A stretch of DNA of 24,392 nt from the IMG/VR virus record IMGVR_UViG_3300042559_002797, positions 1 through 24,392 of that record; one strand, given 5' to 3'. Below, one piece after another: positions 1,618-16,616 of the stretch (its first letter is position 1; each line of letters starts with the position of its first letter). Both the position numbers and the translations under genes were made by a program. The stretch is from a virus. The notes beneath the pieces are model-generated. The model had not been told where the DNA came from, did not search any database, and saw only the letters and a program-made list of their open reading frames with translations.

Positions 1618-1988
1618 TGGTGGAGGTGTCCGGTAACGATCCGGAGTCCTCAAAACTAAACTTAATTAATCGTTTACAAGCTTAGTTAAATTTTTCTAAA
1701 TCTAACAAAATATTTGATTTTTTTTACTCATAAATAATCAACAAAAAACTATCATTATTTTAACCTGTCTGATTCAGGGGAGAATTTTTTTGAAGTATCA
1801 ATTAAGCTACTTCAAGCTCATTCACCACGAGCAAGTTGTTTTGTAGGGCAGCTACCAAATCAGCACTGGTTCCTACTTGTGTTTTTTCGCCGGTTACGAC
1901 ATCGTCACTTAATTTATTAATCGGGTATGTAACCAACCGATACTTGCTTAAGTAAATCTACGGTTTTAAGTCAAAGCCACTCACCCCC
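1618..1988 (-). ncRNA. ssrA: tmRNA (transfer-messenger RNA), phage-encoded, 371 nt
   Basis: On the minus strand the 5' end reads GGGGGTGAGTGGCTTTGAC, the classic tmRNA start. Its GGGGGTG (1982-1988) pairs over 7 bp, with one G·U, with CACCTCC (1622-1628), followed by a discriminator A and an encoded CCA (1618-1620). The T arm is TCCGG/CCGGA with a 7-nt loop ATCGTTA. Helix 2 is CTTAAAAC (1963-1970) with GTTTTGAG (1649-1656). Pseudoknot 1 can form from ATCGG/CCGAT and GGTTAC (1929-1934)/GTAACC (1892-1897). The tag frame stops at TAA in the loop of a GAAGTA/TACTTC hairpin (1792-1813), as in helix 5 of known tmRNAs. This is a one-piece, non-permuted tmRNA. It acts with SmpB on stalled ribosomes, adding a tag and releasing them. 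It lies downstream of the peptidase and NFACT-R genes on the same strand. Confidence 0.93.
1802..1891 (-). other. tmRNA tag reading frame (20-29 residues, resume codon uncertain)
   Basis: Reading back from TAA at 1802-1804 in the helix 5 loop, the frame is open through the tag region. If it resumes at GGC (1889-1891) the tag begins GEKTQVGTSA and has 29 residues. Gly-Glu is how I recall Bacteroidetes tags starting (GENNYALAA in Porphyromonas). That codon directly follows the proposed pseudoknot strand, however, and a gap of about ten bases is usual. Resumption at a later codon, such as the GCT at 1862-1864 (ADLVAALQNN…), is therefore possible. In every case the C terminus is …VVNELEVA, not the common (A)LAA degron. 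Confidence 0.6.
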
Positions 1989-2047: not shown

Positions 2048-3883
2048 TTAAAAAGGAGCTTTTTCATCTTTCATTTCAATCTCACCATCTTCACCCGGAA
2101 TTTCAGCATCATAACTAAAAGTAAACTTTAACACTGGATATCCTTCTTTATTCTCATACAACTCTACTTCAGCACTATATGTAGTAAGGAGATCTTTTTT
2201 TATCTTATTGATTACTTCAAATACATTCAATAGATTACTCATTTTCTCTCTTTTAGATAAGAAAATGTAAGCTATTAAATCATAATTTTCAGTTTCAATT
2301 GTGGATTCGATTTTATTAGCTTTAAACATTTGTCTGATCCAATAAGCCAATTCACCCATTTCACCTTCTCCTCTACCATCTTCTTGTTCTTTTTCAAACT
2401 CTTCTTCTTGATAACCTTTTTTAGTTGGCTTATACTGATATTCATTCCAATCATCTAAATCATCCCAAGCTTCATTAAACTGGTTGAAACTATCTAAATA
2501 CTTTCTATAATATCCATAACCTTTACTCTTTTCTAATTCCATCTTTATAAACTCATCATCAAATGATACTGGTGGGTCTATATCATGTTTATTGAAAAGG
2601 TATGAAAGGTTTAAAAGGTCATTAGAAACTAAATCAACATCCGACTCATCCATTTCAACTTTAATAAAGGCTTTACCTCTATCACCAATTATTTTACATT
2701 CCATATTAAAAGGAGTAGCTTTAAAATCACTTATGAACTTTCCATATTTAGCTAGAATGTCATCATCTAAACCGATTTTTTTAGCTGTCGGCAATTCTTC
2801 CCATTTAATACTAACAGAAGCTTTAGCTAGTTTCTCAAGAAATGTGATATTTTGACTTTCTTTTGTTGTGTGTTCATCAAAATAACCAACTGATATATTC
2901 GTACATTCCGGTATCTGATCAATAAAAGAAGCTGAGTCAGTATAAATACCTGTCGGATCTAAACTAAATTTCATTCCTTGAGAATTATATTGGTCAGCTA
3001 ATGCTTGAGCAAATTCATCAGAGCAACATTCCATACCTAGTTGTTCAGTAATAACTGAATAATAATTTCTTCTATCAAAAGAAACGCATCGTTTAATACC
3101 CTTTAAATGCTCTACTTTTTCAAATATTGACGAAACCTTACCAGATCCAATACCACCTCTTTCTTCACCAATGAAGAAATAATAAACACCTGGAATATTA
3201 TGTGCTATCAAATATAACATCACAGCAACCCCAGATTTATCATCAGCTCCCAAAATAGTTGTACCATCACTCATAAGATGTTCTTGACCATTCTCTATCT
3301 CAGAGTAAATAGTCACCTTAGATTTCTTTCTATCTGCTGTATCTAAGTGTGAGGTAAACATAGTTTCTGATTTACCAATTATCTTATAATAATTACCAAA
3401 CTCATCTTTCTTTAGACCTGCTTGAGCAATGAAAGGAACTACTTCTTCTTCGTGTCCATGAGGATATGTCTCTGTAACAAGTGAAATGAATGTAGCTCTT
3501 ACATCTTTTGGATTCCAAGTAAACTTAGGAACTTCAACTTTTACTGATTTACTAACAGGAACATCTTTAGAGATAGTTGGAAGTGGTTTACCTTTCTTCA
3601 ATAAGTTATATTTTTGAGTGAAAGATTTAATCTCACCTTCAGTGAAGGTTGTACCAAGAAAGTATCTTATGAATTGTCCGACTTTCATTGGTCGATACTT
3701 TCCTCCTATTTTCACATCAAATGACCAATCTTGTGATGATTTATCAACCATCTCAATACCTATTTCATTATCTAAAATAGGATCTCCTTCTATTCTCATC
3801 AATTGGTCTGAAACTTTATCTCCGATATCATCAAATATATCGTAAAGTTTGTCGGAGTATGCTAATAATGGACCTTTTGGCAT
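2048..3883 (-). CDS. Zinc metallopeptidase (M20/M28/M42-like) with extra N- and C-terminal domains
   Basis: 611 residues. The core at about 125-360 has all expected metal and catalytic positions: SHLDT (H179, D181), LGADDKSG (D214/D215), GEERGGIGS (E240/E241), SFD (D270) and FDEHTT (H338). This arrangement fits peptidase T/M42-type aminopeptidases that trim peptides with two zinc ions. It is preceded by about 120 residues of a separate domain with KVGQFIRYFLG and FTEGEIKSF segments. It is followed by about 250 residues of unrecognised sequence with a very acidic stretch (474-510). Known bacterial relatives lack these extensions, so the protein may bind a partner or the virion. No signal peptide is seen, so it should act in the cytoplasm. 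The gene lies 26 bp downstream of the NFACT-R gene and 59 bp upstream of the tmRNA, all on one strand. A TTAATATATACT box precedes the start. Confidence 0.8.
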   Translation of the reverse strand: MPKGPLLAYSDKLYDIFDDIGDKVSDQLMRIEGDPILDNEIGIEMVDKSSQDWSFDVKIGGKYRPMKVGQFIRYFLGTTFTEGEIKSFTQKYNLLKKGKPLPTISKDVPVSKSVKVEVPKFTWNPKDVRATFISLVTETYPHGHEEEVVPFIAQAGLKKDEFGNYYKIIGKSETMFTSHLDTADRKKSKVTIYSEIENGQEHLMSDGTTILGADDKSGVAVMLYLIAHNIPGVYYFFIGEERGGIGSGKVSSIFEKVEHLKGIKRCVSFDRRNYYSVITEQLGMECCSDEFAQALADQYNSQGMKFSLDPTGIYTDSASFIDQIPECTNISVGYFDEHTTKESQNITFLEKLAKASVSIKWEELPTAKKIGLDDDILAKYGKFISDFKATPFNMECKIIGDRGKAFIKVEMDESDVDLVSNDLLNLSYLFNKHDIDPPVSFDDEFIKMELEKSKGYGYYRKYLDSFNQFNEAWDDLDDWNEYQYKPTKKGYQEEEFEKEQEDGRGEGEMGELAYWIRQMFKANKIESTIETENYDLIAYIFLSKREKMSNLLNVFEVINKIKKDLLTTYSAEVELYENKEGYPVLKFTFSYDAEIPGEDGEIEMKDEKAPF

Positions 3884-3901: not shown

Positions 3902-3913
3902 AGTATATATTAA
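3902..3913 (-). promoter_or_regulatory. Candidate late-promoter box for the peptidase and tmRNA
   Basis: Minus-strand TTAATATATACT lies 18 nt upstream of the peptidase ATG and overlaps the stop of the NFACT-R gene. The identical 12-mer lies 20 nt upstream of the gene that starts at 12747. Confidence 0.45.
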
Positions 3914-4299
3914 ATTGCAATATTGATTTCTTGAGCATTCTTATAATCAACTTTAACTTGACCTGGTTTCATATCTGGATCCTTCTTAACAAATTTAGCT
4001 TTACAACAAACAACTACACATTCTCCTTTAGCTTTTGAATTCTTTGCAGCCAATTGAGCCACTTGTCTTTTAACTTCATTAGAAATTAATCTATCTTTCT
4101 GTCTAATAATTATATGTGATCCTGGTACTCCTTTGACGTGAAACCATAGGTCTTCTGGATCGGCCATAATAGTTGTCAAATGGTCATTAGAAAGAGCATC
4201 TTTACCCATTATTATTTGATATCCATCTATTTCTAATCTTTTTAAGTTAGGAAATTTCTCTTTTTTAGATTCTTGAAATGATTTAAATTTTCTTATCAT
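3910..4299 (-). CDS. Stand-alone NFACT-R domain protein
   Basis: 129 residues. After a short N terminus (MIRKFKSFQESKKEKFP), the whole protein matches the NFACT-R (DUF814) domain found at the C-terminal side of RqcH/FbpA/NEMF proteins. Visible motifs are DGYQIIMGKDALSNDHLT (25-42), DLWFHVKGVPGSHIII (about 50-65), an AAKNSKAKG segment and VKKDPDMKPGQVKVDY (104-119). In cells these domains sit in RqcH, which binds stalled 60S/50S subunits and adds C-terminal alanine tails. NFACT-R itself is thought to bind RNA. The NFACT-N, helix-hairpin and coiled-coil parts needed for RqcH activity are absent here. The protein may therefore compete with or modify host ribosome quality control. The N terminus resembles the MKxLxxFE-type segment of other genes in this window. 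It starts an apparent operon with the peptidase and tmRNA. Confidence 0.85.
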   Translation of the reverse strand: MIRKFKSFQESKKEKFPNLKRLEIDGYQIIMGKDALSNDHLTTIMADPEDLWFHVKGVPGSHIIIRQKDRLISNEVKRQVAQLAAKNSKAKGECVVVCCKAKFVKKDPDMKPGQVKVDYKNAQEINIAI

Positions 4300-4300
4300 A

Positions 4301-4312
4301 TAATATATATTA
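4301..4312 (-). promoter_or_regulatory. TATATA box directly before the NFACT-R start
   Basis: TAATATATATTA on the minus strand lies one base upstream of the ATG at 4299. It may drive the NFACT-R, peptidase and tmRNA unit, with a very short or absent leader. It lies just downstream of the terminator at 4323-4353, so transcription of this unit must start here or read through. Confidence 0.4.
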
Positions 4313-4322
4313 GTTTATAAAA

Positions 4323-4353
4323 ACAAAAAACCCTCTCGAATTGAGAGGGTTTT
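4323..4353. terminator. Hairpin terminator after the 210-aa gene
   Basis: CCCTCTC (4331-4337) and GAGAGGG (4343-4349) with a GAATT loop. The minus strand continues into a T-rich tract, so it ends transcription of the gene at 4375-5007. A few T on the other side make it weakly bidirectional. Confidence 0.85.
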
Positions 4354-4374: not shown

Positions 4375-5007
4375 TTAAACTGTCAAGGCAAAAGAACTTC
4401 CAAAATCACCAAATGGAGAAGTATTGAAATCAAGATAATAAGTTGTTGTACCGCTTGCAAATGCAGCACTTTGAGAAAATGTAAAAGTGCCAAGTCCTAC
4501 TTGTTTACTAACTGATGCCGTGAATCCATTAAAGAAATTACCAGTATTAACCGGTGAACTAAATACTATACTATTACCACTAGTAGTTGCTGAAAATCCA
4601 ACAGCATTACCTGTAAAAGACATACCACCAACCAACAGATTTATAGCAGAAGCCACTGTACTCTGTGTTGACGAGAATGTATATCCACCAGCGCCAAGTA
4701 AGTTTACTCCTCTAATCTGAAAGTTCACACTTGTTGTGTTAGAAGCACTTCCACCAAAAGCTAAAGTCGCAGTAGCAGGAACATAGGTTGTATTCGCATC
4801 ACCAGATGCTGTTGAAGAATCTAAATTAGCTGAAAATGTAGTACTACCATTGAAGTAACCATTAGATAAATTTATGGTCTGTGAAGCAGATAGTCCAGTC
4901 AGAACTAAGCTGTTAATTCCTCTCATTCTGAGAGCTTGAATATTTAAAGTGACAACATCACTTGCCGTGGCAAAAGTTGGACTAATTGATAAATAAGGTC
5001 TTGACAT
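4375..5007 (-). CDS. Unrecognised Ser/Thr/Ala/Gly-rich protein, candidate virion surface protein
   Basis: 210 residues, beginning MSRPYLSISPTFATASDVVT. It is rich in Ser, Thr, Ala, Gly and Asn with regularly spaced hydrophobic residues, suggesting an all-beta structural protein. It has few charged residues and no signal peptide or membrane segment. The gene follows the major capsid gene and has its own box (5026-5041) and its own terminator. Such an isolated unit next to the capsid gene suits an abundant decoration or fibre protein, but no homology is recognised and this is inference from position and composition. Confidence 0.75.
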   Translation of the reverse strand: MSRPYLSISPTFATASDVVTLNIQALRMRGINSLVLTGLSASQTINLSNGYFNGSTTFSANLDSSTASGDANTTYVPATATLAFGGSASNTTSVNFQIRGVNLLGAGGYTFSSTQSTVASAINLLVGGMSFTGNAVGFSATTSGNSIVFSSPVNTGNFFNGFTASVSKQVGLGTFTFSQSAAFASGTTTYYLDFNTSPFGDFGSSFALTV

Positions 5008-5121: not shown

Positions 5122-6867
5122 TTAGTTCAAGTATTGGTTTGCGTCTGTTACAACGATAGTCATATACTGCTTTTGTGGGAAGAAACCAACATCAGCGATA
5201 GCGTATCTTGAACGTAACAACATTCTTGGAGCGAAAGTAGCTTCAGAAATTACAGAGATAGACTGAGCCATCAAGTAAGGTACGAAGATAAGACCTGGTT
5301 GATCAGGGTTGTTCTTTCTACCAATAACGATTCTGTTGTCGTTATATCTCATATAAGGGTCAACGTAGATTTGAATATCTCCGATTGTACCTACTGGATA
5401 TAATTGACCAGCACCATTCATTTTAGATTTAACTGGGTTAATTGTATAACCAGCGATATCCATAAGAGCTGCACCAAGACCTCCGTTAGTTACTGCGAAT
5501 TGAGCAGGACCAACACGACCTTCAGTCGCAATGTAGTTAGAAGCGTGAGCTAACTTAGTGATAAGTTTTCTTTGAACAGCGTGTGTAGTTTCACCACCGA
5601 TACCACCATTTATTGTAACATAAGCAGTGTTCAAGTCGAAGATTGTAGATGCTGTTGTACCAACAGTTGTTACACCTAATCCAGCTTGAAGTGGAGCAGT
5701 TTGTCTGTTTGTATTACCAAGTTCGAAAATCTTAGCAACAATTTGTTTAGAAATTGTTTGAGATAATTCATTAACAAGGATAGATTCCATTTTTTGAACG
5801 ATATCCATACCTGTGTTAGCTTTGATATCTTCAATTTCAGTTCTTCTCAATGCAGTTGATACTTCAATAGTACCTACAGCGATTGATTTAGATGAAATCT
5901 TAGGACCGATAACACCAGCATAAGTTGCATCATCAGTTGCACGACTCATTGGATAATCTCCAGTTGAAGTACTAGCTGCCCAGTTTGCAGAGAAACCTGG
6001 TAAGTGATCTTCAAGAGCTGAAACTAAATCAATAGTTGAAGCAGAAGCAACAATTGTACCAATATAGTTCAATTGAGAAGTAATACTTCCAGTAGTAGCA
6101 AATGTATTCAAAGTTGTATCGAATGCGTAAGGATAACCAGCTGAAGTTCCTTGAACTTGTGAGTTCGGTTGTCTGTAAGCTTTGAACATTGGATTACCAT
6201 CAATACGAGAGAATCCCAAGAATTCAAGAACTCCTGCCTTAGAACCATTATCAACAGCTGTAACATTCGTAGTTAATGAACCAGGAGAACCAGGTAAACA
6301 AGAACCAGTAGCAAATACTCTAACATTTGCAAGTCCACCTTGAGTTAAAGTACCACTATTAGCACTTACAAAAGATGAAAGTGTTGCAACGATAGCAGTC
6401 AAATTGGCATTTGCTGTAATTTTGAAAACTTGTGGCCTTCCGAATTCACCTGAAGCTGTGTTAGTATCATCATATTGAAAATCAATATAAAGTAAGTCGA
6501 TTTTTGGACCTGGAGTAGGTTTTACAGCTACTAAATCTAAACCGATTGTTTGAGCTGCGATTTTCATTGCTACTGGAAGTAAGTTTTGACCAAGGTCTCC
6601 TGAACCGATAGAAGCACCACCGGTTAGTGCACCAGCACCGAATCCCTGTCCACCTGCGCCTAAAAGACCAGGAAAAGAGGAAGGTTGAGGAGCTGAAACA
6701 GCACCCATACCTGCAATAGCTACGTTAGCGTAAGCGTTCTCATTGATTGAGTGGAACTCAGCATATTCTGCTAACCATTCAACTCTATCACCAGTAACAC
6801 CCATGTTCTCCAATACTGGAGCCCACTTCTTAACCGCTTTTTGTTTGTCTATTCTAATGTGTGACAT
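5122..6867 (-). CDS. 23: Major capsid protein, T4 gp23-like
   Basis: 581 residues. The N terminus KKWAPVLENMGV matches the T4 gp23 prosegment (NKWKPLLEGEGL), and the C-terminal third has the family pattern, including the IQIYVDPYMRYNDNRIVIGRKN segment and the RSRYAIADVGFFPQKQ end. It forms the hexamers of the head. A tripeptide I-N-E at 41-43, in a SINENAYANVAIAG context, aligns with the T4 prosegment cleavage site (LTE before AEIGG) and fits the gp21 rule, so the mature protein probably starts near residue 44. The gene follows the protease-scaffold gene by 42 bp with no box in between, so it is cotranscribed. A hairpin ends the unit. Residues 50-90 are unusually Gly/Ala-rich. Confidence 0.93.
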   Translation of the reverse strand: MSHIRIDKQKAVKKWAPVLENMGVTGDRVEWLAEYAEFHSINENAYANVAIAGMGAVSAPQPSSFPGLLGAGGQGFGAGALTGGASIGSGDLGQNLLPVAMKIAAQTIGLDLVAVKPTPGPKIDLLYIDFQYDDTNTASGEFGRPQVFKITANANLTAIVATLSSFVSANSGTLTQGGLANVRVFATGSCLPGSPGSLTTNVTAVDNGSKAGVLEFLGFSRIDGNPMFKAYRQPNSQVQGTSAGYPYAFDTTLNTFATTGSITSQLNYIGTIVASASTIDLVSALEDHLPGFSANWAASTSTGDYPMSRATDDATYAGVIGPKISSKSIAVGTIEVSTALRRTEIEDIKANTGMDIVQKMESILVNELSQTISKQIVAKIFELGNTNRQTAPLQAGLGVTTVGTTASTIFDLNTAYVTINGGIGGETTHAVQRKLITKLAHASNYIATEGRVGPAQFAVTNGGLGAALMDIAGYTINPVKSKMNGAGQLYPVGTIGDIQIYVDPYMRYNDNRIVIGRKNNPDQPGLIFVPYLMAQSISVISEATFAPRMLLRSRYAIADVGFFPQKQYMTIVVTDANQYLN

Positions 6868-6909: not shown

Positions 6910-9012
6910 TTAAAGGTTTTTGAATCTTTCCATAATAGCTCCTAATTCTTTGTCAGATAATTTATCTTCCTGAATTAACGCTTCATGTGAAACTAATTTC
7001 TTAGTAACAGATTCATTCTTTTTAAGATTTCTAGTCATCCAGAAATGTTCTAACTGAGATTCAGTTTTCATAACATCAGATGGGTAAAGTCTAGCCTGTG
7101 AAAGGATAGATTTTCTAGCACTCTCATTAAGTTGGTTCCAGATTGGCTTGATGTTTTCAGGCATCAATCTGATTACTCTTTCTTCAAGAGTTTCGTTTTT
7201 AGCACTCAAGGCCTCAGAGATTAACTTCAATACATCAGATGTAGTGAAGAAACTTTTTTCGTTTATGTAAAGTTTAACAGTTTCTTGTTCTTCGTTTGTA
7301 AGATTGTAGAAACTATCAACCTGAGATTTGTTTAAAAACTTCAAAAAATGTAGATCGGATGTTTCAGTAGCTTTACGTTTTTTAGCTTCTTCGATCAATT
7401 TATCAATAGATTGTGATAATTCAGTATCAGACTCTCCAGAAACTTCATAAGATTCTTCTTCTTGAGTTTCTTCCTCATCTTCTTCGTGAGCCATTGGACC
7501 ACAAACTTCTTCTTCAGGAGTTTCTTCATGAGCTGGAGCTTCCATTTCATCATTCCAAGATTTTTCTTCTTCTTCCTCTTCTTCTACAGCTTCAAAACCT
7601 GCAGCTTTTAAAGTAGGGAAAGTTTCTGATTCACCATAAGACTCTAATAGTTTTCCACTATTCAATCTTTCAGCGATAAGTCCAGAGTATGAAATAGATT
7701 TGTCTAAGTTTTCTGCGATATATTCAGAGTAAGCGATGTTATCATCAAGATTCTCAGCGATATATTCAGAGTATGCAATATTACCTTCTACGTGTTCAGC
7801 AAGATACTCAGAGTAAGCAATAGAGTTATCTAAGTGTTCTGCTAAATATTCTCCGTAAGAGATAGATTTGTCTAAGTTTTCTGCGATATATTCAGCATAA
7901 GCAATGTTCTTGTCAAGATTCTCAGCTAAATATTCAGAGTAAGCAATATTCTTGTCAAGGTTTTCAGCTAAATACTCACCATAAGAGATTGATTTATCAA
8001 GGTTCTCAGCGATATATTCAGCATAAGAAATGTTCTTGTCAAGGTTTTCAGCGATATACTCAGAGTATTCGATGTTTTTATCAAGATTCTCAGCGATATA
8101 CTCAGAATAATTGATAGCCTTTTCAAGATTTTCAGCTAAATAATCATTGTGTTTGATAAGTTTCTCAGTAGTAGATTTAAGAGAAGTATTCTCATTAACT
8201 ACAACTTGTACTTTTTCTGCTAAGTAATCAAGATACTTAACAATTTGTGAGTTATTTTTATTTAAATCTTCATAATATTCAAGAAGTTGTTCTAACTTCT
8301 TAGGATTTAAGTTACCTTTAGAAAGAGCCGATGTTACAGTCTTCTTTGTAGAAGCCAACTCATTTACTAAGTATTTTGAGTAATCGGTCAATTGTTTTTT
8401 CGTTACGAAATCGTTAGCGTTCATGTTAAATAGTTCGTTAATTTTTGATTCATCAGACATCTCGTAAATTCTAAAGTTTGACTTCGGATTTTTATAACCT
8501 AAAGATTCGTTAAGAGTCTTTACAGTCATTTTGGCAGAAGAAAAACCAGGATCTGCTACGATATCATATGTGAATAATTTTTTCAATGTAACCGTTCCAT
8601 CAGCCTCTGTAACACCAGCTGCACGAGAAGAAACGAAAATAGGACAACCATCGTTGACCAAAGCTTTAGCTTCTTTTCCCCAGTATGTGTTGAGAAGTCT
8701 AATTTCACCTTCTATTCTGTTACTTTCTTTAACAAAAGAAGCACTTCTCACAATGTGAGATGCTCTTGAAAGAGAAGTGTCGAAAACATCGGGATGGTCG
8801 AATTCACCATAAACAACACCAAGATTTGTAATCCTTTCGTTTAATTCATTTAAACAAGGAATAAATCTATCGGCTGTGTAAACTCTTTCGTTCCTATTTT
8901 TAATATCGAACTCAGTGAAAATACCACCCAATATGAATTGATCCTTCTGACTGTTATTCTCATTAAGTGATAATGAGTTAGTTGAGTTTTCTACAATTAG
9001 TACTGATTTCAT
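6910..9012 (-). CDS. 21: Prohead protease fused to scaffold core (gp21 + gp22-like)
   Basis: 700 residues. Residues 25-170 form a T4 gp21-type serine protease. GEFDHPD (His73) and FVSSRAAG (Ser128/129) match the catalytic His and Ser segments, with LFTYDIVADPGF near the end of the domain. From about 190 the protein is helical and scaffold-like. Residues 289-452 are twelve tandem 14-mers of the type SEYIAENLDKNIAY. After this come a Glu-rich stretch (476-521) and a helical C terminus ending MERFKNL. In T4 the protease and the scaffold are separate genes (21, 22); here one ORF holds both. Each repeat carries [IL]-A-E, which fits the gp21 cleavage rule. The gene lies between portal and capsid genes, as in T4, with a CTATATACT box upstream. 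Confidence 0.9.
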   Translation of the reverse strand: MKSVLIVENSTNSLSLNENNSQKDQFILGGIFTEFDIKNRNERVYTADRFIPCLNELNERITNLGVVYGEFDHPDVFDTSLSRASHIVRSASFVKESNRIEGEIRLLNTYWGKEAKALVNDGCPIFVSSRAAGVTEADGTVTLKKLFTYDIVADPGFSSAKMTVKTLNESLGYKNPKSNFRIYEMSDESKINELFNMNANDFVTKKQLTDYSKYLVNELASTKKTVTSALSKGNLNPKKLEQLLEYYEDLNKNNSQIVKYLDYLAEKVQVVVNENTSLKSTTEKLIKHNDYLAENLEKAINYSEYIAENLDKNIEYSEYIAENLDKNISYAEYIAENLDKSISYGEYLAENLDKNIAYSEYLAENLDKNIAYAEYIAENLDKSISYGEYLAEHLDNSIAYSEYLAEHVEGNIAYSEYIAENLDDNIAYSEYIAENLDKSISYSGLIAERLNSGKLLESYGESETFPTLKAAGFEAVEEEEEEEKSWNDEMEAPAHEETPEEEVCGPMAHEEDEEETQEEESYEVSGESDTELSQSIDKLIEEAKKRKATETSDLHFLKFLNKSQVDSFYNLTNEEQETVKLYINEKSFFTTSDVLKLISEALSAKNETLEERVIRLMPENIKPIWNQLNESARKSILSQARLYPSDVMKTESQLEHFWMTRNLKKNESVTKKLVSHEALIQEDKLSDKELGAIMERFKNL
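7657..8148 (-). repeat. Tandem 42-bp (14-residue) repeat array inside the scaffold gene
   Basis: About 11.7 copies coding for (S/A/G)-E-Y-(I/L)-A-E-N-L-D-K-(N/S)-I-x-Y. The copies differ at synonymous and a few coding positions, so the array is old or under selection on the protein. A degenerate in-phase unit (LDYLAEK, residues 261-267) lies two repeat lengths upstream. Tyr and aliphatic residues recur in a helical pattern. Confidence 0.95.
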
Positions 9013-9501: not shown

Positions 9502-9954
9502 ATGGAATGGAAGATAGATTTACATTCAGAAATTAATAATATTAAAAATTTCAAATCATTATTAGAAAAATATAAAGACTACAACTCTTGTATTCGTGAT
9601 ATTAAAATCAACACCTTATTAGGAGAAAAATGTCTTTTTGAAATCGAAGATATAAATCCAGGAATTTATTGTGATTTCTCGGATGGTTCAGACACACTCA
9701 CTTCATTAAACACATCTGCTATTTATATAAATAAACTTTCTTTTAAAATTAATACTGATTTAACTATTTTAGAATTTAAGGTGAACTATAAAATACTTGA
9801 TACTAAAATGGGCAAATTAGTCAAGGAATTACAATCTTTTGGGATCTCTCTCGAAATCACACCGAGAATATTAAAAATGGGTTTAGATAACCAATTGCAA
9901 GTTGTCGGATTTTATATCGACAATAAATCAACATCAACTTATATCAGGGCCTAA
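9502..9954 (+). CDS. Prohead-protease-fold-like protein lacking the catalytic Ser segment (tentative)
   Basis: 150 residues, with no strong family match. Residues 89-140 (EFKVNYKILDTKMGKLVKEL, then GISLEITPRIL) align by eye with the protease part of the neighbouring 700-aa protein (GEIRLLNTYWGKEAKALV, then GCPIFVSSRAAG). The shared pattern is LxT-x2-GK-x4-L-x3-G-x6-[ST]-x-R. Where the protease has Ser-Ser-Arg this protein has Thr-Pro-Arg (120-122), and no HP motif is seen. It may be a non-catalytic relative that regulates or builds the prohead core. The stop overlaps the 3' end of the convergent portal gene by four bases. The call rests on one manual alignment. Confidence 0.5.
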   Translation: MEWKIDLHSEINNIKNFKSLLEKYKDYNSCIRDIKINTLLGEKCLFEIEDINPGIYCDFSDGSDTLTSLNTSAIYINKLSFKINTDLTILEFKVNYKILDTKMGKLVKELQSFGISLEITPRILKMGLDNQLQVVGFYIDNKSTSTYIRA

Positions 9955-11657
9955 AATTCAAATTCGTCGCCGCCAGCTTCTCCACCTCCAGATTCTCCAC
10001 CAGCTTCGGTTTCACCACCTGCTGGAGCTTCCGGTGTAGTTTGAGCACCACCTTCTGGAGCGGCTTGAGCATCACCCATTTCACCACCAGCTTCCATTCC
10101 ACCACCTTCAACACCTTCAGCACCACCCGCACCAGCACCATCTTTTAACCAATATTTTTTATTTTCTTCTTTCTCCTCAGGTGTCAATTTCAATACATGG
10201 TCTATTAAATATTCAATATGAAAATAAGGTTGGCCATCAGCTTTTTGAATTCCATTAAGAGTCCCAAGAATCTCAGCCTTTTTAGATAGATTGCCTAATT
10301 TTTTCCACTCTTCAAATAATTGATTAGAAAGAAATTGAATATCTACTTCATTCATAAACCTTTCATCATCCTTTAATTCAGGAAATTCTACTAACATTTG
10401 TAGTTTAAGTGGTTTAACCATCAATTCTTTAAAATTGGATCTTAATCTCATTACGAAATTTCCAAATTTTGATTCATCACGAGTAATCTCAGCAGCATCA
10501 GCAAATACATTACCACCACCATTCTCATCCTGGAATCTTTGCATCGGAATCTTAGAAGCTCTTTTTAGAATATTAAAAAACCATTTTAAAATGTCATCCT
10601 CATTTAGATTATGACCCGCCCCAGCATTCATAATCTCCATATTAGGAGTTCCACCATCACCCTCAGGAAACCAATATTGTTTATTATAAGAAAGGTGTTT
10701 TTGTCCATTTATCCTTAAAGTACCCAACGAATCATCCCATTCAACTTCCTCAGAATAATCCTGAATTAGTTGACCAATTTGTTCTTCCGCTCTTTGTCTA
10801 CCTAATCCTTTAATTGGTATAACAAACTTTTGATAAAGAGTCGCATTAACAAGATTAAACATTATCTTAGTTTGCTCAATAATTTTTAACTGATTATATG
10901 GTTTAATTAAACCCTCAACATATGAGGTTTCAGAATAATCGTTCTGAGAAGAATAAGAGATAAAAATAATTTGAGAATCTAAGAATATTCTTCTTAATTG
11001 TGGATCTTCTGGGTATTGAATCCAAAGATGACCAATAGAAGGCTCGAAAGCTGGAACTAAAGTTTCAGGACGAAGACGATTAAATCCAATAATATTCTTT
11101 TTCTTATCATCCCAAATAATTTCCATAGCCACATAACCATCGATAATAAAATCTTTCATCAACTGCCACGCACTTACTGAATCAGCAAATCCATATCTGT
11201 TATAAATCTTTTCAAAATATTCTTGATATTTATCTTTTATATCTTGTGTAAATTCAGTTGGTAGTTGTCTTGGAGAGCAAAAATCTTTTTCTGAATAAAT
11301 GATACATTCATCACAAACAGTTGAGATAAAATCTCTAATTTCATCTTTAATAGAATATTCTCTTAAAATTCTTCTTTTATCAGCATATGAACGGTCAAGA
11401 TAAGGTATTGACTTTCTGTTTAAAATTGATGCGACCGCACGGCGGCTAAAAAAGTCGTACATTGAATTCCCTTGCTGTGCATAAGGATCTTCGTTGATAC
11501 CAACACCAACTTGATTACGCATGATCATATCATCATAATTCATACCCCAAGTCGATAAATTCCTCAATATTCTAGAGAATAAACCACGATTTTCCACAGC
11601 AGAATTCGTATTATATTGAAATTGTCCCTGGTTATTTAATGGATTATATGATGCCAT
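9951..11657 (-). CDS. 20: Portal vertex protein, T4 gp20-like
   Basis: 568 residues. The family pattern is seen in the DFISTVCDECIIYSE region (109-123), the GYVAMEIIWDDKKKNI region, LNEDDILKWFFNILKRASKIP followed by MQRFQDENGGG, and the FADAAEITRDESKFGNFVMRLRSNF region. It forms the dodecameric ring through which DNA is packaged and to which the neck binds. The last 70 residues, after YWLKDG, are a low-complexity Gly/Ala/Glu tail ending DEFEF; T4 gp20 lacks this. Its start overlaps the end of the HNH endonuclease gene by 14 bp, and the 3' end meets the convergent plus-strand gene. The order portal, protease, capsid follows T4. Confidence 0.92.
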   Translation of the reverse strand: MASYNPLNNQGQFQYNTNSAVENRGLFSRILRNLSTWGMNYDDMIMRNQVGVGINEDPYAQQGNSMYDFFSRRAVASILNRKSIPYLDRSYADKRRILREYSIKDEIRDFISTVCDECIIYSEKDFCSPRQLPTEFTQDIKDKYQEYFEKIYNRYGFADSVSAWQLMKDFIIDGYVAMEIIWDDKKKNIIGFNRLRPETLVPAFEPSIGHLWIQYPEDPQLRRIFLDSQIIFISYSSQNDYSETSYVEGLIKPYNQLKIIEQTKIMFNLVNATLYQKFVIPIKGLGRQRAEEQIGQLIQDYSEEVEWDDSLGTLRINGQKHLSYNKQYWFPEGDGGTPNMEIMNAGAGHNLNEDDILKWFFNILKRASKIPMQRFQDENGGGNVFADAAEITRDESKFGNFVMRLRSNFKELMVKPLKLQMLVEFPELKDDERFMNEVDIQFLSNQLFEEWKKLGNLSKKAEILGTLNGIQKADGQPYFHIEYLIDHVLKLTPEEKEENKKYWLKDGAGAGGAEGVEGGGMEAGGEMGDAQAAPEGGAQTTPEAPAGGETEAGGESGGGEAGGDEFEF

Positions 11658-12390
11658 ATTCTATTTTATCTTTTTTAATATCTCTATTTATTTTAGTACA
11701 GAGTGGCTGTAAATTTGTATAATGGTTAATTTTAATAATCTCTTCCTCACTTTGAGCATTAGATAGTGGCATAACATGATCGATATCCCAACCAACATTT
11801 AACTCACCTGTATAGATACCTCGGTTTTCCCAGGTCATCCAGTTTTCAAACTTTGACTCTAAATAAATTTTAAATTCATCGTACGAGCATCCTAATATTT
11901 CTTGTGTTTTAGATTTTTTGGAATATCCCGACTCATAAAAAGAGTTATTTATCAAATTCCTAATATTAGTGGTCAATCTGAATATGACATCATTCTGACG
12001 CCTTTCTGATAATTGTTTATTCCTCTTATCTTTGTTTTCACTCTGATACCTTTTTTGATATTCTAACTTCCTATCTTTATTATTTTCATAATCAGATTTT
12101 CTCTTAGAAAGTATTTGTAATTTATTTAATTGATAGTAATTTCTTTTATTTTCCGAAATTTCTTCCTTTTTAGATTCTCTATATTTCAATATTTTTTCCG
12201 TATTAGAGATTCTATATTCACTTGCCTTTTGTTTGGATTTATCTTTATTTTCAATTCTATAAATTCTTTTACACTCTTTACAATTAGTTCTACGACCATC
12301 TTTAGATGATTTATCTCTGTTAAATAAATCTAAATCCTTTATAGTATCACACTTACTACATTTTTTTTGACTAATCATAGAAATTTTCAA
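11644..12390 (-). CDS. HNH homing endonuclease with N-terminal zinc finger
   Basis: 248 residues. The N terminus has a zinc finger (C11, C14, C37, C40, in KCSKCDTIKDL and NCKEC). Residues 45-130 are Lys/Glu/Tyr-rich and helical, with Y-R-x-x-N-K-type repeats that may bind DNA. The C terminus holds the nuclease: WDIDHVMPLSNA (D204, H205), then HYTNLQPLCTKINRDIKKDK (N226, N235), the HNH ββα-metal signature. All key residues are present, so it may be active. It overlaps the portal gene start by 14 bp, so the endonuclease has joined the head operon without breaking it. A TTATATATAC box (12401-12410) precedes it. A likely target is the portal region of related phages lacking the gene (inference). 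Confidence 0.88.
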   Translation of the reverse strand: MKISMISQKKCSKCDTIKDLDLFNRDKSSKDGRRTNCKECKRIYRIENKDKSKQKASEYRISNTEKILKYRESKKEEISENKRNYYQLNKLQILSKRKSDYENNKDRKLEYQKRYQSENKDKRNKQLSERRQNDVIFRLTTNIRNLINNSFYESGYSKKSKTQEILGCSYDEFKIYLESKFENWMTWENRGIYTGELNVGWDIDHVMPLSNAQSEEEIIKINHYTNLQPLCTKINRDIKKDKIEYGII

Positions 12391-12432: not shown

Positions 12433-12747
12433 TTACTCCTTAGGAAATTCTCCTAAGAATGTCAATAACTCTTCTTTAAAAGATTGATATCCTGGGTTAT
12501 TATTCAAATCAGCGACCAAACCATCGATTACTTTCTGAACTATCTCTCTTCTTTCATCTTCTTCTTGTGAAGATAATTGTCTTTTCTTACTACCAGCTTC
12601 TAATTCTGGTAAATATCTACCCGAAGTTTCTTTTCTTCTTTGTTCGATTTTTTCATCTTCAGATTTTTCAAAATCTTGTCTTAGCTTAGTTTCAGCTGCT
12701 AACTTAGATTTGTAATCAAGATCTTCAAATTTTTGTAAATGTTTCAT
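12433..12747 (-). CDS. Small charged helical protein with capsid-targeting-like N terminus
   Basis: 104 residues, unrecognised. It begins MKHLQKFEDL, close to the N termini of the genes at 505 and 978, then is dominated by Glu, Lys, Arg and Gln in long helices. It includes YLPELEAG, with an L-P-E tripeptide that fits the gp21 cleavage rule. Position upstream of the portal gene, size and charge suggest a prohead core or internal protein like T4 gp67/gp68, but no sequence homology is claimed. A TTAATATATACT box lies 20 nt before the start. Confidence 0.7.
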   Translation of the reverse strand: MKHLQKFEDLDYKSKLAAETKLRQDFEKSEDEKIEQRRKETSGRYLPELEAGSKKRQLSSQEEDERREIVQKVIDGLVADLNNNPGYQSFKEELLTFLGEFPKE

Positions 12748-14338: not shown

Positions 14339-14634
14339 ACTTTAAAAAATATATCTTCTATTTTTATTAGATTGTTCATTTCATACTCCATCAATCGAAG
14401 TGAATTTTTTTCCTTCACTAATTCAAACAGAGTATCAGAAATAAAACATTCTATCAATGGACCAGTGATTCTGTCATATTCATGTGACACTAAAGCCTCA
14501 CCCTGACGAATTATATATATTTCATTTAGATAACTCTTATGAGCCTCTTCATTGATATGTAAAGAGCAACCATCAGGTCTAATACCCCAACTTCTTTCAG
14601 ATTCTTCCCATCTCTGGAAATAACAACGATTCAT
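14335..14634 (-). CDS. Conserved phage hypothetical protein with WGxRPDGxSLH motif
   Basis: 99 residues. The segment [26 protein letters not shown] (residues 15-40, shown for its motif WGxRPDGxSLHxxxxxxxxYxxxIY) resembles small uncharacterised proteins common in phages. No function is known to me. It begins 38 bp inside the end of the GDP-fucose synthase gene and is coupled by a four-base overlap to the membrane protein downstream, so it belongs to the fucose operon. Confidence 0.7.
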
Positions 14635-15550
14635 TTAAAAAATGTTTATAAGTTAATTCAATTCCCCTTTTCAAGTCAGTCTTATGTGACCAACCTAACT
14701 CATGTATTTTAGAAACATCTAAAAGTTTACGAGGAGTACCATCTGGTTTAGAAGAATCATAAATAATTTGACCAGCGAACCCAATGACGTCTCTGATCAT
14801 TAATGCTAAATCTTTAATTGAAATATCTTCACCAGTTCCAATATTAACAATTTCAGACTCATTGTAATTTAACATTAAATAAACACAAGCCTCAGCTAAA
14901 TCCTCGACATATAAAAATTCACGCATAGGATTTCCACTGCCCCATATAACAACCTCGGAATCTCCATTACTTTTTGCTTCATGAAATTTTCTAATAAGAG
15001 CTGGTAAAACGTGTGATGATTGTAAATCATAATTATCACCAGGACCATACAAATTAGTTGGCATAACTGAAATAAAATTTGTACCATACTGTTGATTGAA
15101 ACTTTGACACATTTTTATTCCAGCAATTTTTGCAATTGCATAAGCATCATTACTTGTCTCTAAATAACCACTCAATAAATATTCCTCCTTTAAAGGCTGT
15201 GGTGCCATTTTAGGGTAAATACATGAGGAACCCAAAAACATTAATTTTTTTACTCCTGTCTGATATGATGCGTTAATAATATTCGTTTGAATCGCGAGAT
15301 TTTGATAAATAAAATCTGCCTTAAAATCACTGTTAGCCTTGATACCACCAACCTTCGCTGCTGCAAGAAAAACATATTCTGGTCTCTCAAAGTGAAAAAA
15401 ATGATTGACTTGAAATTGATTAGTTAGATCTAATTCTTTTTTTGATTTAGTCACAATATTGGTATATCCTTCAGATTTTAATTTTCTTAGTATAGCTGAT
15501 CCAACCATACCTCTATGACCAGCAACAAATATTTTAGAATCTTTTTTCAT
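14597..15550 (-). CDS. fcl: GDP-L-fucose synthase (3,5-epimerase/4-reductase)
   Basis: 317 residues from the ATG at 15550. The frame is open further up to 15670, but that part only shadows the gmd gene, and the nucleotide-binding strand starts at [15 protein letters not shown] right after this Met. The protein is an SDR enzyme: the glycine motif [25 protein letters not shown] (catalytic Ser region), YAIAK (Tyr and Lys of YxxxK) and [12 protein letters not shown] are all present. It converts GDP-4-keto-6-deoxymannose to GDP-L-fucose with NADPH, the step after Gmd. Its length is close to the bacterial enzyme. It overlaps the end of gmd by 17 bp. Confidence 0.93.
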
Positions 15551-16616
15551 TTTCAAGATGTTTTTTTGATATTTTTTCAAAATCCGAATAAACCATTTCC
15601 TTACACAATTCTTCGACTGTATATTTAGGTATCCATCCCAATTTTGTTCTAGCTTTAGTTGAATCACCAAGTAGTTGATCTACTTCTGTTGGCCTAAAGT
15701 ATTCAGTGTCTATCTCAACTATTACTTTTCCAGTTTTTTTATCTATACCCCTTTCATCTTTTCCTGAACCAATCCAATCGATTTGAATATCAAGAAAGTT
15801 AAAAGCCATGGTGCAAAATTCTCTAACTGAAATTTTTGTACCAGTTGAGAGAACATAGTCTTCTGGTGTATCTTGTTGCATCATTAACCACATACCCTCA
15901 ACATAATCTTTAGCATGTCCCCAATCTCTTTCAGCATCAAGATTACCAATTAATAATTTATCTTGAATTCCTAATTTAATTTTAGCAACAGCTTGTGTAA
16001 TCTTTCTTGTTACGAATGTTTCACCCCTAACTGGACTTTCATGATTGAAAAGTATTCCAGAACAAGCAAATATTCCATAAGCCTCTCTATAATTAACAGT
16101 AATCCAATGTGCATAAAGTTTAGCTACACCATATGGACTTCTTGGATAAAAAGGAGTTGTTTCTTTTTGAGGCACTTCTTGAACTAAGCCAAACATTTCA
16201 GAAGTTGATGCTTGATAAAATTTTGTTTTATTTTGAAGATTCAAGATTCTAATAGCTTCTAAAATTCTAAGAGTTCCTATACCATCAGCATTTGCAGTAT
16301 ATTCCGGAGTTTCAAAACTCACTTTAACATGAGATTGTGCGGCTAAATTATAGATTTCATCTGGTTGAACTTCTTGTATTATTCTAATTAAATTGGTCGA
16401 GTCAGTCAAATCACCATAATGTAAATGAAAGTTTTTGGATTCTCTTGTAGATTCATAAAGATAATCTATTCTTTCAGTATTGAAAGAAGAACTTCTTCTC
16501 TTTATACCATGAACTATATAACCTTTTTCTAGAAGAAATTCAGCTAAGTAACTTCCATCTTGCCCCGTGATTCCCGTACAAAGTGCTACTTTTTTTTTAT
16601 CTAAATTTGTACTCAT
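15534..16616 (-). CDS. gmd: GDP-mannose 4,6-dehydratase
   Basis: 360 residues. The N terminus has the NAD(P)-binding [16 protein letters not shown] motif (15-30) and [14 protein letters not shown]. The catalytic STSEMFG and YGVAK (YxxxK) motifs, [33 protein letters not shown] and [13 protein letters not shown] all match bacterial Gmd. It makes GDP-4-keto-6-deoxymannose from GDP-mannose in the cytoplasm. With the next gene it gives a full route to GDP-L-fucose. A AATTATATAA box (16641-16650) lies about 25 bases upstream. Confidence 0.95.

Follow-up and report, generated by a model that had tools for sequence, protein, structure and literature searches.

The stretch of DNA analysed here, hereafter the window, is a 24392-base virus record (IMG/VR record IMGVR_UViG_3300042559_002797) of a T4-like phage with a gp20 portal protein, a gp21-like protease-scaffold fusion and a gp23 capsid protein. 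Its features of interest, in order of position, are the following.

505-981, (+) strand: small leader-bearing gene (MRFLKLFENF), candidate head cargo
978-1433, (+) strand: leader-bearing gene (MKYLMLFENF), candidate head cargo
1618..1988, (-) strand: tmRNA with encoded CCA, 371 nt (Rfam RF00023, 57.4 bits; ARAGORN tag ALQNNLLVVNELEVA)
2048..3883, (-) strand: peptidase-T-like gene after NFACT-R, 611 aa (phrog_4191 peptidase, 1.1e-64; peptidase T of PDB 3gb0, 9.2e-7)
3910..4299, (-) strand: stand-alone NFACT-R protein, 129 aa (Pfam PF05670, 1.2e-16; sequence and fold like those of RqcH and CCDC25)
3949..4233, (-) strand: NFACT-R domain proper, residues 23-117 (Pfam match range)
4270..4299, (-) strand: capsid-targeting-like leader, residues 1-10 (MIRKFKSFQE), with a predicted cut before S11 at a conserved junction
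4300..4350, (-) strand: terminator-like hairpin and its T run, followed by an AT-rich promoter-like motif (TATATA) directly before the start codon (from sequence)
4375..5007, (-) strand: 210-aa gene, located between those for the capsid protein and NFACT-R here and in a few relatives
5122..6867, (-) strand: major capsid protein, gp23 type, predicted cleavage SINE/NAY at residue 43 (Pfam Gp23, 1.3e-27)
6910..9012, (-) strand: prohead protease fused to scaffold, 700 aa (phrog_207 head maturation protease, 7.2e-29)
9951..11657, (-) strand: portal protein, gp20 type (Pfam Portal_T4, 2.1e-59)
12433-12747, (-) strand: leader-bearing gene (MKHLQKFEDL), candidate head cargo

Genes resembling GDP-mannose dehydratase and GDP-fucose synthase, recognised by eye, also lie within the structural gene region, at 14597-16616 on the (-) strand.

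The product of 3910-4299(-) matched NFACT-R_1 (PF05670) with an E-value of 1.2e-16 and 61.7 bits, against a Pfam cut-off of 29.8. Its phmmer matches in the PDB were led by the C-terminal domain of Streptococcus suis FBPS (1.8e-14) and B. subtilis RqcH (2.3e-13), followed by CCDC25, and a profile search also matched RqcH and FBPS, at 1.2e-24. The AlphaFold model has a mean pLDDT of 89.4, with most of the domain above 90 and residues 1-13 below 50. Aligned with VIA-align, this model matched the RqcH of 8s1u at Z 18.9 (1.4 A over 107 residues), 5h3w at Z 18.2 and CCDC25 at Z 16.2, with the CCDC25-DNA complexes 7eof and 8woh at Z 15.8-16.2; by both sequence and fold, RqcH is nearer to the phage protein than CCDC25 is. 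The initial annotation of this DNA, made from its letters alone, had proposed an isolated NFACT-R domain in a phage, and both the Pfam search, with its match above the curated cut-off, and structure prediction against RqcH bear this out.

Given these domain and fold matches, the reading frame consists of NFACT-R with about 22 residues on its N-terminal and 12 on its C-terminal side. NFACT-N, HhH and coiled coil are absent from it as judged by Pfam and the AlphaFold model, and its architecture is therefore not that of RqcH/NEMF; nor does a CCDC25-type coiled coil follow the domain, as the model finishes with a strand at 123-128 and has no helix beyond the domain. In an alignment of 33 rows, 24 columns are invariant besides E10 of the leader, and the core NFACT-R motifs of the phage proteins are common to B. 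subtilis RqcH. PHROGs holds no family matching the protein (best 0.062). Profile matches to DHT03, which we take to be short stretches of designed proteins, were set aside as irrelevant.

The gene occupies a conserved position in a cassette of head genes. Our set comprises 79 viral loci, which encode 57 distinct NFACT-R proteins; 76 of the loci came from scanning IMG/VR with a profile, and the other three are the window and two LR records. In all but one of the 79 (L063, cut by a contig end), NFACT-R is preceded on its own strand by a gp23-type capsid gene, at a median distance of 88 bp and within 1 kb in 74 of the 78. The gene downstream is peptidase-T-like in 77 of 79 loci (median gap 93 bp), the two exceptions (L081 and L083) being cut off. 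Among 12 phage records, none of the nine that bear NFACT-R has a second copy. The gene is absent from the whole records LR756504, LR756501 and LR756500, more distant relatives with the portal-protease-capsid block, and thus marks one branch of the group, in which it is maintained. The capsid proteins nearest to that of the window belong to LR756502 (642 kb, 68% identity) and LR745206 (635 kb, 66%). An excerpt of the huge-phage paper describes a Mahaphage clade with genomes of 634, 636, 642 and 735 kb and predicted Bacteroidetes hosts (PMC7162821); LR756502 and LR745206 are probably those Mahaphage genomes, which would make the phage of the window a Mahaphage relative.

Upstream of NFACT-R, TATAWA occurs within 25 nt in 39 of 42 unique upstream stretches. 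The motif AATATATA, found at 4300-4311 of the window, also precedes other genes, from a few to about 40 nt before their start codons. Judging by its placement, AATATATA is likely a phage promoter, and its position directly before the NFACT-R ATG would give a very short leader RNA. Because a terminator-like hairpin lies between the capsid and NFACT-R genes and the latter has a promoter-like motif of its own, the timing of NFACT-R could differ from that of the capsid protein, which would count against packaging.

The window also carries a tmRNA no more than 2.3 kb from NFACT-R, a neighbour that lies outside the conserved cassette. ARAGORN gave it a tag ending in ...ELEVA and not the usual LAA, while the tag of the LR756500 tmRNA is GNNAEMRMAA. 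By eye, the acceptor stem of the window tmRNA has a G3-U70 pair, the mark for alanine. The initial annotation had offered tmRNA binding as one role for NFACT-R, and this proximity might suggest that the protein is the partner of a phage tmRNA in a phage-borne rescue system. The distribution of the two genes speaks against such a partnership: no tmRNA was found in the 78 other NFACT-R loci or, with RF00023 and ARAGORN, in the whole of LR745206, which carries NFACT-R, whereas LR756500 and LR756504 have a tmRNA above cut-off and no NFACT-R. We therefore reject tmRNA partnership as very improbable. Matches to RF00023 below cut-off that covered short parts of the model, or were too short for a tmRNA, were left uncounted, and one match of 344 nt in LR756501, likewise sub-threshold at 21.1 bits, was discarded, as ARAGORN found no tmRNA there. 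SmpB is present in 6 of the 12 phage records, which are six of the seven longer than 300 kb and include four of the five LR records (LR756501, LR756502, LR756504 and LR745206; loci including L207 and L208); LR756502 and LR745206 have both SmpB and NFACT-R and no tmRNA above cut-off. An S4 match, as expected of an RqcP-like partner, occurred in only 1 of the 12 phage records (G003). Carriage of SmpB and tmRNA thus indicates that these phages invest in ribosome rescue, yet NFACT-R occurs independently of tmRNA.

A quick tree with 97 rows unites the 17 phage NFACT-R proteins included in it (SH-aLRT 99) and sets them beside six Bacteroidota rows and one long Armatimonadota branch (86). NFACT-R matches above cut-off were present, one each, in 113 of 148 sampled Bacteroidota genomes, and 34 of the 148 had no match. 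Among 114 Bacteroidota matches, the frames were 492-792 aa long with the single exception of G085 (135 aa), which lies where its contig ends, and the two proteins examined in full resemble whole RqcH. Since the Bacteroidota copies sit in long frames, a free-standing NFACT-R seems, in this setting, to be a feature of phages. Across 80 bacterial loci, two frames shorter than 300 aa lay away from contig edges, L098 (134 aa) and L158 (266 aa); the former was rejected as a bacterial stand-alone NFACT-R, being an RqcH split in a MAG (455 + 109 aa). Matches were also returned by Listeria, Enterococcus, Helicobacter and fecal 'phage' records, of which 2 of 11 were examined (L247 and L248); with frames of 574 and 578 aa they look like whole RqcH, are probably host DNA and were not accepted as phage NFACT-R.

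This kinship invites an explanation in which the phage protein is a dominant-negative fragment of RqcH, which would occupy the NFACT-R site on the obstructed 50S subunit and stop alanine tailing; truncated phage proteins would then escape the degradation mark, with rescue through the phage-encoded parts of trans-translation. The motifs common to B. subtilis RqcH, the place of the phage clade beside Bacteroidota RqcH in the quick tree, the long-frame matches in most sampled Bacteroidota genomes and the SmpB genes of the larger phages all agree with it. However, RqcH recruitment is described as depending on uL11 in the portion of the RqcH study consulted (PMC8373112), the NFACT-R of RqcH is, by a similarly partial account, poorly resolved on the 50S, and 34 of the 148 Bacteroidota genomes gave no match. 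In B. subtilis, an extract of one study indicates, a strain deleted for ssrA leans on RQC (PMC11633108). On balance, we consider a dominant-negative fragment unlikely.

The strongest clue to function lies in front of the domain. All 57 distinct NFACT-R proteins begin with a leader of 8-14 residues that ends in Glu and comes in 44 different strings, among them MIKKYNYFFE, MKYLKYFE, MKHLKQFE and MRNLKKFKSFLYE. The next residue is Ser in 41 and Gly in 16, followed by Lys; this Glu/Ser-Gly junction was part of one of our two search patterns, which favoured its recovery, and 14 distinct proteins outside that pattern also keep it. E10 is invariant across the alignment although the residues before it vary, and residues 1-13 are disordered in the AlphaFold model. 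In eight loci, to which the window does not belong, NFACT-R is fused in frame to an acidic upstream domain of about 100 aa (L004 at 11650-12339, L018, L019, L035, L037, L048, L064 and L089), and all eight retain the Glu/Ser-Gly site, which then lies within the polypeptide; in the L004 fusion the internal ATG is lost, and its upstream domain has no Pfam match.

A protease that could act at such a site is encoded in the same cluster. The protease-scaffold protein is of gp21 type by its phrog_207 match (7.2e-29), with Pfam Peptidase_S77 reaching only 20.2 bits, below the cut-off of 27, and a capsid cleavage-type site is present in all 77 capsid proteins read. Sites of the form [FYLI]xE number 44 in the protease-scaffold protein, against 24.4 in shuffled sequences (maximum 36 of 500). 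About ten 14-residue repeats (SEYIAENLDKNIxY) with protease-like [FYLI]xE sites are also seen in this protein. For T4, an extract of the literature states that the first 10 residues of IPIII suffice for packaging and that gp21 cuts after L/I-X-E (PMC9026906). T4 IPIII starts MKTYQEFIAE/A, with IPII likewise, and IPI starts MKTFKEF. The NFACT-R leaders, with their Glu at residue 8-14, resemble those of T4 internal proteins, which have about 10-20 residues, in being short and ending in a Glu cleavage motif; their P3 residue is unlike that of L/I-X-E, being F/Y in 46 of 57, L/I in 9 and Q in 2. Taken together, these features make packaging of NFACT-R in the phage head a well-supported prediction, and we infer that the leader targets the protein to the capsid and is cleaved, with packaging and injection to follow. 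The P3 residues may count against packaging, as T4 gp21 prefers L/I and the phage's own capsid site is I-N-E.

The initial annotation had likened the N terminus of NFACT-R to those of other genes, which is true of three genes in the window (MRFLKLFENF, MKYLMLFENF and MKHLQKFEDL) and far above chance in LR745206. Reading frames came from a mechanical procedure that started at ATG, required 90 aa or more, excluded overlaps greedily and worked on 20-kb cuts, and a first leader pattern was set after the N termini of the loci and before LR745206. The strict pattern was set after the matches in the first 400 kb of that genome, so that 400-635 kb served as a held-out part. The strict leader was found on 73 of 432 ORFs in the first 400 kb, against 21.1+-4.2 with shuffled N termini, and on 57 of 289 in the held-out part, against 15.1+-3.8 (maximum 25 of 200 shuffles). 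In the bacterial control of 80 loci it was found on 5 of 488 ORFs (10.4 shuffled). The whole of LR745206 thus has 130 leader-bearing ORFs out of 721 where about 36 would be expected by chance, an excess of roughly 90-95. Stretches of relatives gave 0 of 28 (LR756504, without NFACT-R) and 1 of 30 (LR756501), which weighs against the packaging reading.

Twenty of the 130 ORFs, chosen by length or interest, were scanned with Pfam, and four exceeded the curated cut-off: a CCA-adding/poly(A) polymerase, a T4-type RNA ligase, a 2'-5' RNA ligase with an exonuclease, and glycosyl hydrolase 108. The last is not RNA-related; the other three act on RNA or nucleic-acid ends. Matches below cut-off were to DHH and, on the 2'-5' RNA ligase with exonuclease, to Acb1. 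The three enzymes lie in LR745206 as follows.

L216, 8257-9573, (-) strand: leader-bearing 2'-5' ligase/Acb1-like protein with exonuclease
L217, 10485-11747, (+) strand: leader-bearing T4-type RNA ligase
L219, 16201-17373, (+) strand: leader-bearing CCA-adding enzyme

It is possible, from their domains and leaders, that these are injected RNA-repair and counter-defence proteins. The RNA ligases of LR756502 and of two IMG/VR records (68-73% identity) also bear the leader, whereas those of LR756504 and LR756501 (39-40% identity) start at the domain; being present or absent on the same enzyme between relatives, the leader behaves as an added module. It is retained by three close relatives of the CCA enzyme and in three close records of the Acb1-like part.

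So many leaders can also be turned against packaging. Since 130 of 721 ORFs is a very large number for capsid cargo, the leader may be another localisation signal, and NFACT-R perhaps a cytoplasmic RNA or ribosome factor, made in infection and directed, for example, to a replication compartment or membrane. The mostly aromatic P3 and the gene's own promoter-like motif are compatible with this, which we view as doubtful yet deserving of serious attention; the invariant Glu/Ser-Gly junction, its retention inside the fusions, and the T4-like protease with an [FYLI]xE-rich scaffold in the same cluster are harder to reconcile with it. Alternatively, NFACT-R could be packaged and have no dealings with ribosomes, as an internal nucleic-acid-binding head protein that binds the packaged DNA and aids its packing or guards its ends on entry. 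Its strict place behind the capsid gene and the fold matches to the CCDC25-DNA complexes would suit such a role, but sequence and fold are both nearer to RqcH than to CCDC25, and three of the four other named leader-bearing proteins act on RNA or nucleic-acid ends. We regard a purely DNA-binding head protein as rather unlikely.

We postulate instead that NFACT-R is a head-packaged, processed and injected RNA- or 50S-binding factor that acts early, a proposal on which our judgement is evenly balanced. By way of its leader, the protein would dock in the core of scaffold inside the assembling prohead; cleavage after Glu10 by the gp21-like protease would follow, and the freed domain would remain in the head and enter the host with the DNA. 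There it might bind RNA or the large ribosomal subunit, as in RqcH, before phage translation; the most likely effect would be that ribosomes are kept usable for the phage, or that host ribosome quality control is disturbed. That the protein might be packaged and injected was also raised by the initial annotation, and this is the part of it that fares best, with the junction in 57 of 57 proteins, the capsid neighbour in 78 of 79 loci, the gp21-like protease and the 130 of 721 leaders in its favour. The 50S or RNA as target, and any effect on RqcH, are less supported suggestions. NFACT-R alone might bind the 50S weakly. In the part of the RqcH study at hand, tRNA recognition sits in NFACT-N (PMC8373112). 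In favour of a 50S target, an excerpt on PhiKZ014 shows that a phage protein can act at the 50S, in the region of the A-site finger (PMC10914614). Competition with RqcH that blocks alanine tailing, another suggestion of the initial annotation, is possible on the present sequence evidence as a sub-case of RNA/50S binding.

If the proposal is true, a single domain of a widespread ribosome-rescue factor now serves phages as an injected effector, and the protein would be a natural minimal probe of the role of NFACT-R. The leader would provide a sequence rule for predicting which proteins the largest known phages inject, and the first named leader proteins would point to RNA repair and ribosome control as functions that arrive together with the phage DNA. 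It is tempting to speculate, though only tentatively and with more doubt than confidence, that Mahaphage relatives pack dozens to perhaps a hundred leader-tagged proteins, including the NFACT-R factor, RNA ligase, CCA enzyme and Acb1-like phosphodiesterase, as a first-strike kit, so that RNA would be repaired, ribosomes protected and host defences countered before translation of the phage transcripts begins. A full-text literature search of partial coverage, with few subscription journals, recognised neither NFACT-R in a phage nor this leader family in huge phages, and NFACT is not mentioned in the accessible portions of the main text of the huge-phage paper (PMC7162821) or of a jumbo-phage overview.

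Compared with known systems, the phage protein has in common with RqcH (FbpA/YloA) the NFACT-R sequence motifs and fold, and its clade lies beside Bacteroidota RqcH in the quick tree. It differs in being without NFACT-N, HhH, coiled coil and M domain, in its probably removable leader and in its head-gene cassette. Human CCDC25 is likewise an NFACT-R protein without NFACT-N and matches in fold (Z 16.2); this free-standing relative, whose structure has been solved with DNA, senses DNA, is without a leader and continues into a coiled coil. The NFACT-R of tRNA 4-thiouridylation systems reportedly adjoins ThiI/TusA-like genes, as Burroughs and Aravind are said to have described in 2014; in the phage cassette the neighbours are capsid and peptidase genes. 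An NFACT-R gene in a large DNA virus is also described for prasinoviruses and coccolithoviruses, according to an extract of one report (PMC11467894), but these are algal viruses and offer no phage head context; short NFACT-R models of 105-171 aa are among the BFVD matches. PhiKZ014 is, from the excerpt available, an early phage protein that works close to the A-site finger of the 50S (PMC10914614), although it is a different protein, made after infection, that clamps 5S rRNA. T4 IPI-IPIII and Alt, finally, have in common with the phage proteins a short aromatic N-terminal leader and a gp21-type protease, and IPII and IPIII even a Glu10 before a small residue; they are not NFACT-R proteins, and the leaders of the phages studied here have mostly F/Y at P3 and occur on far more genes.
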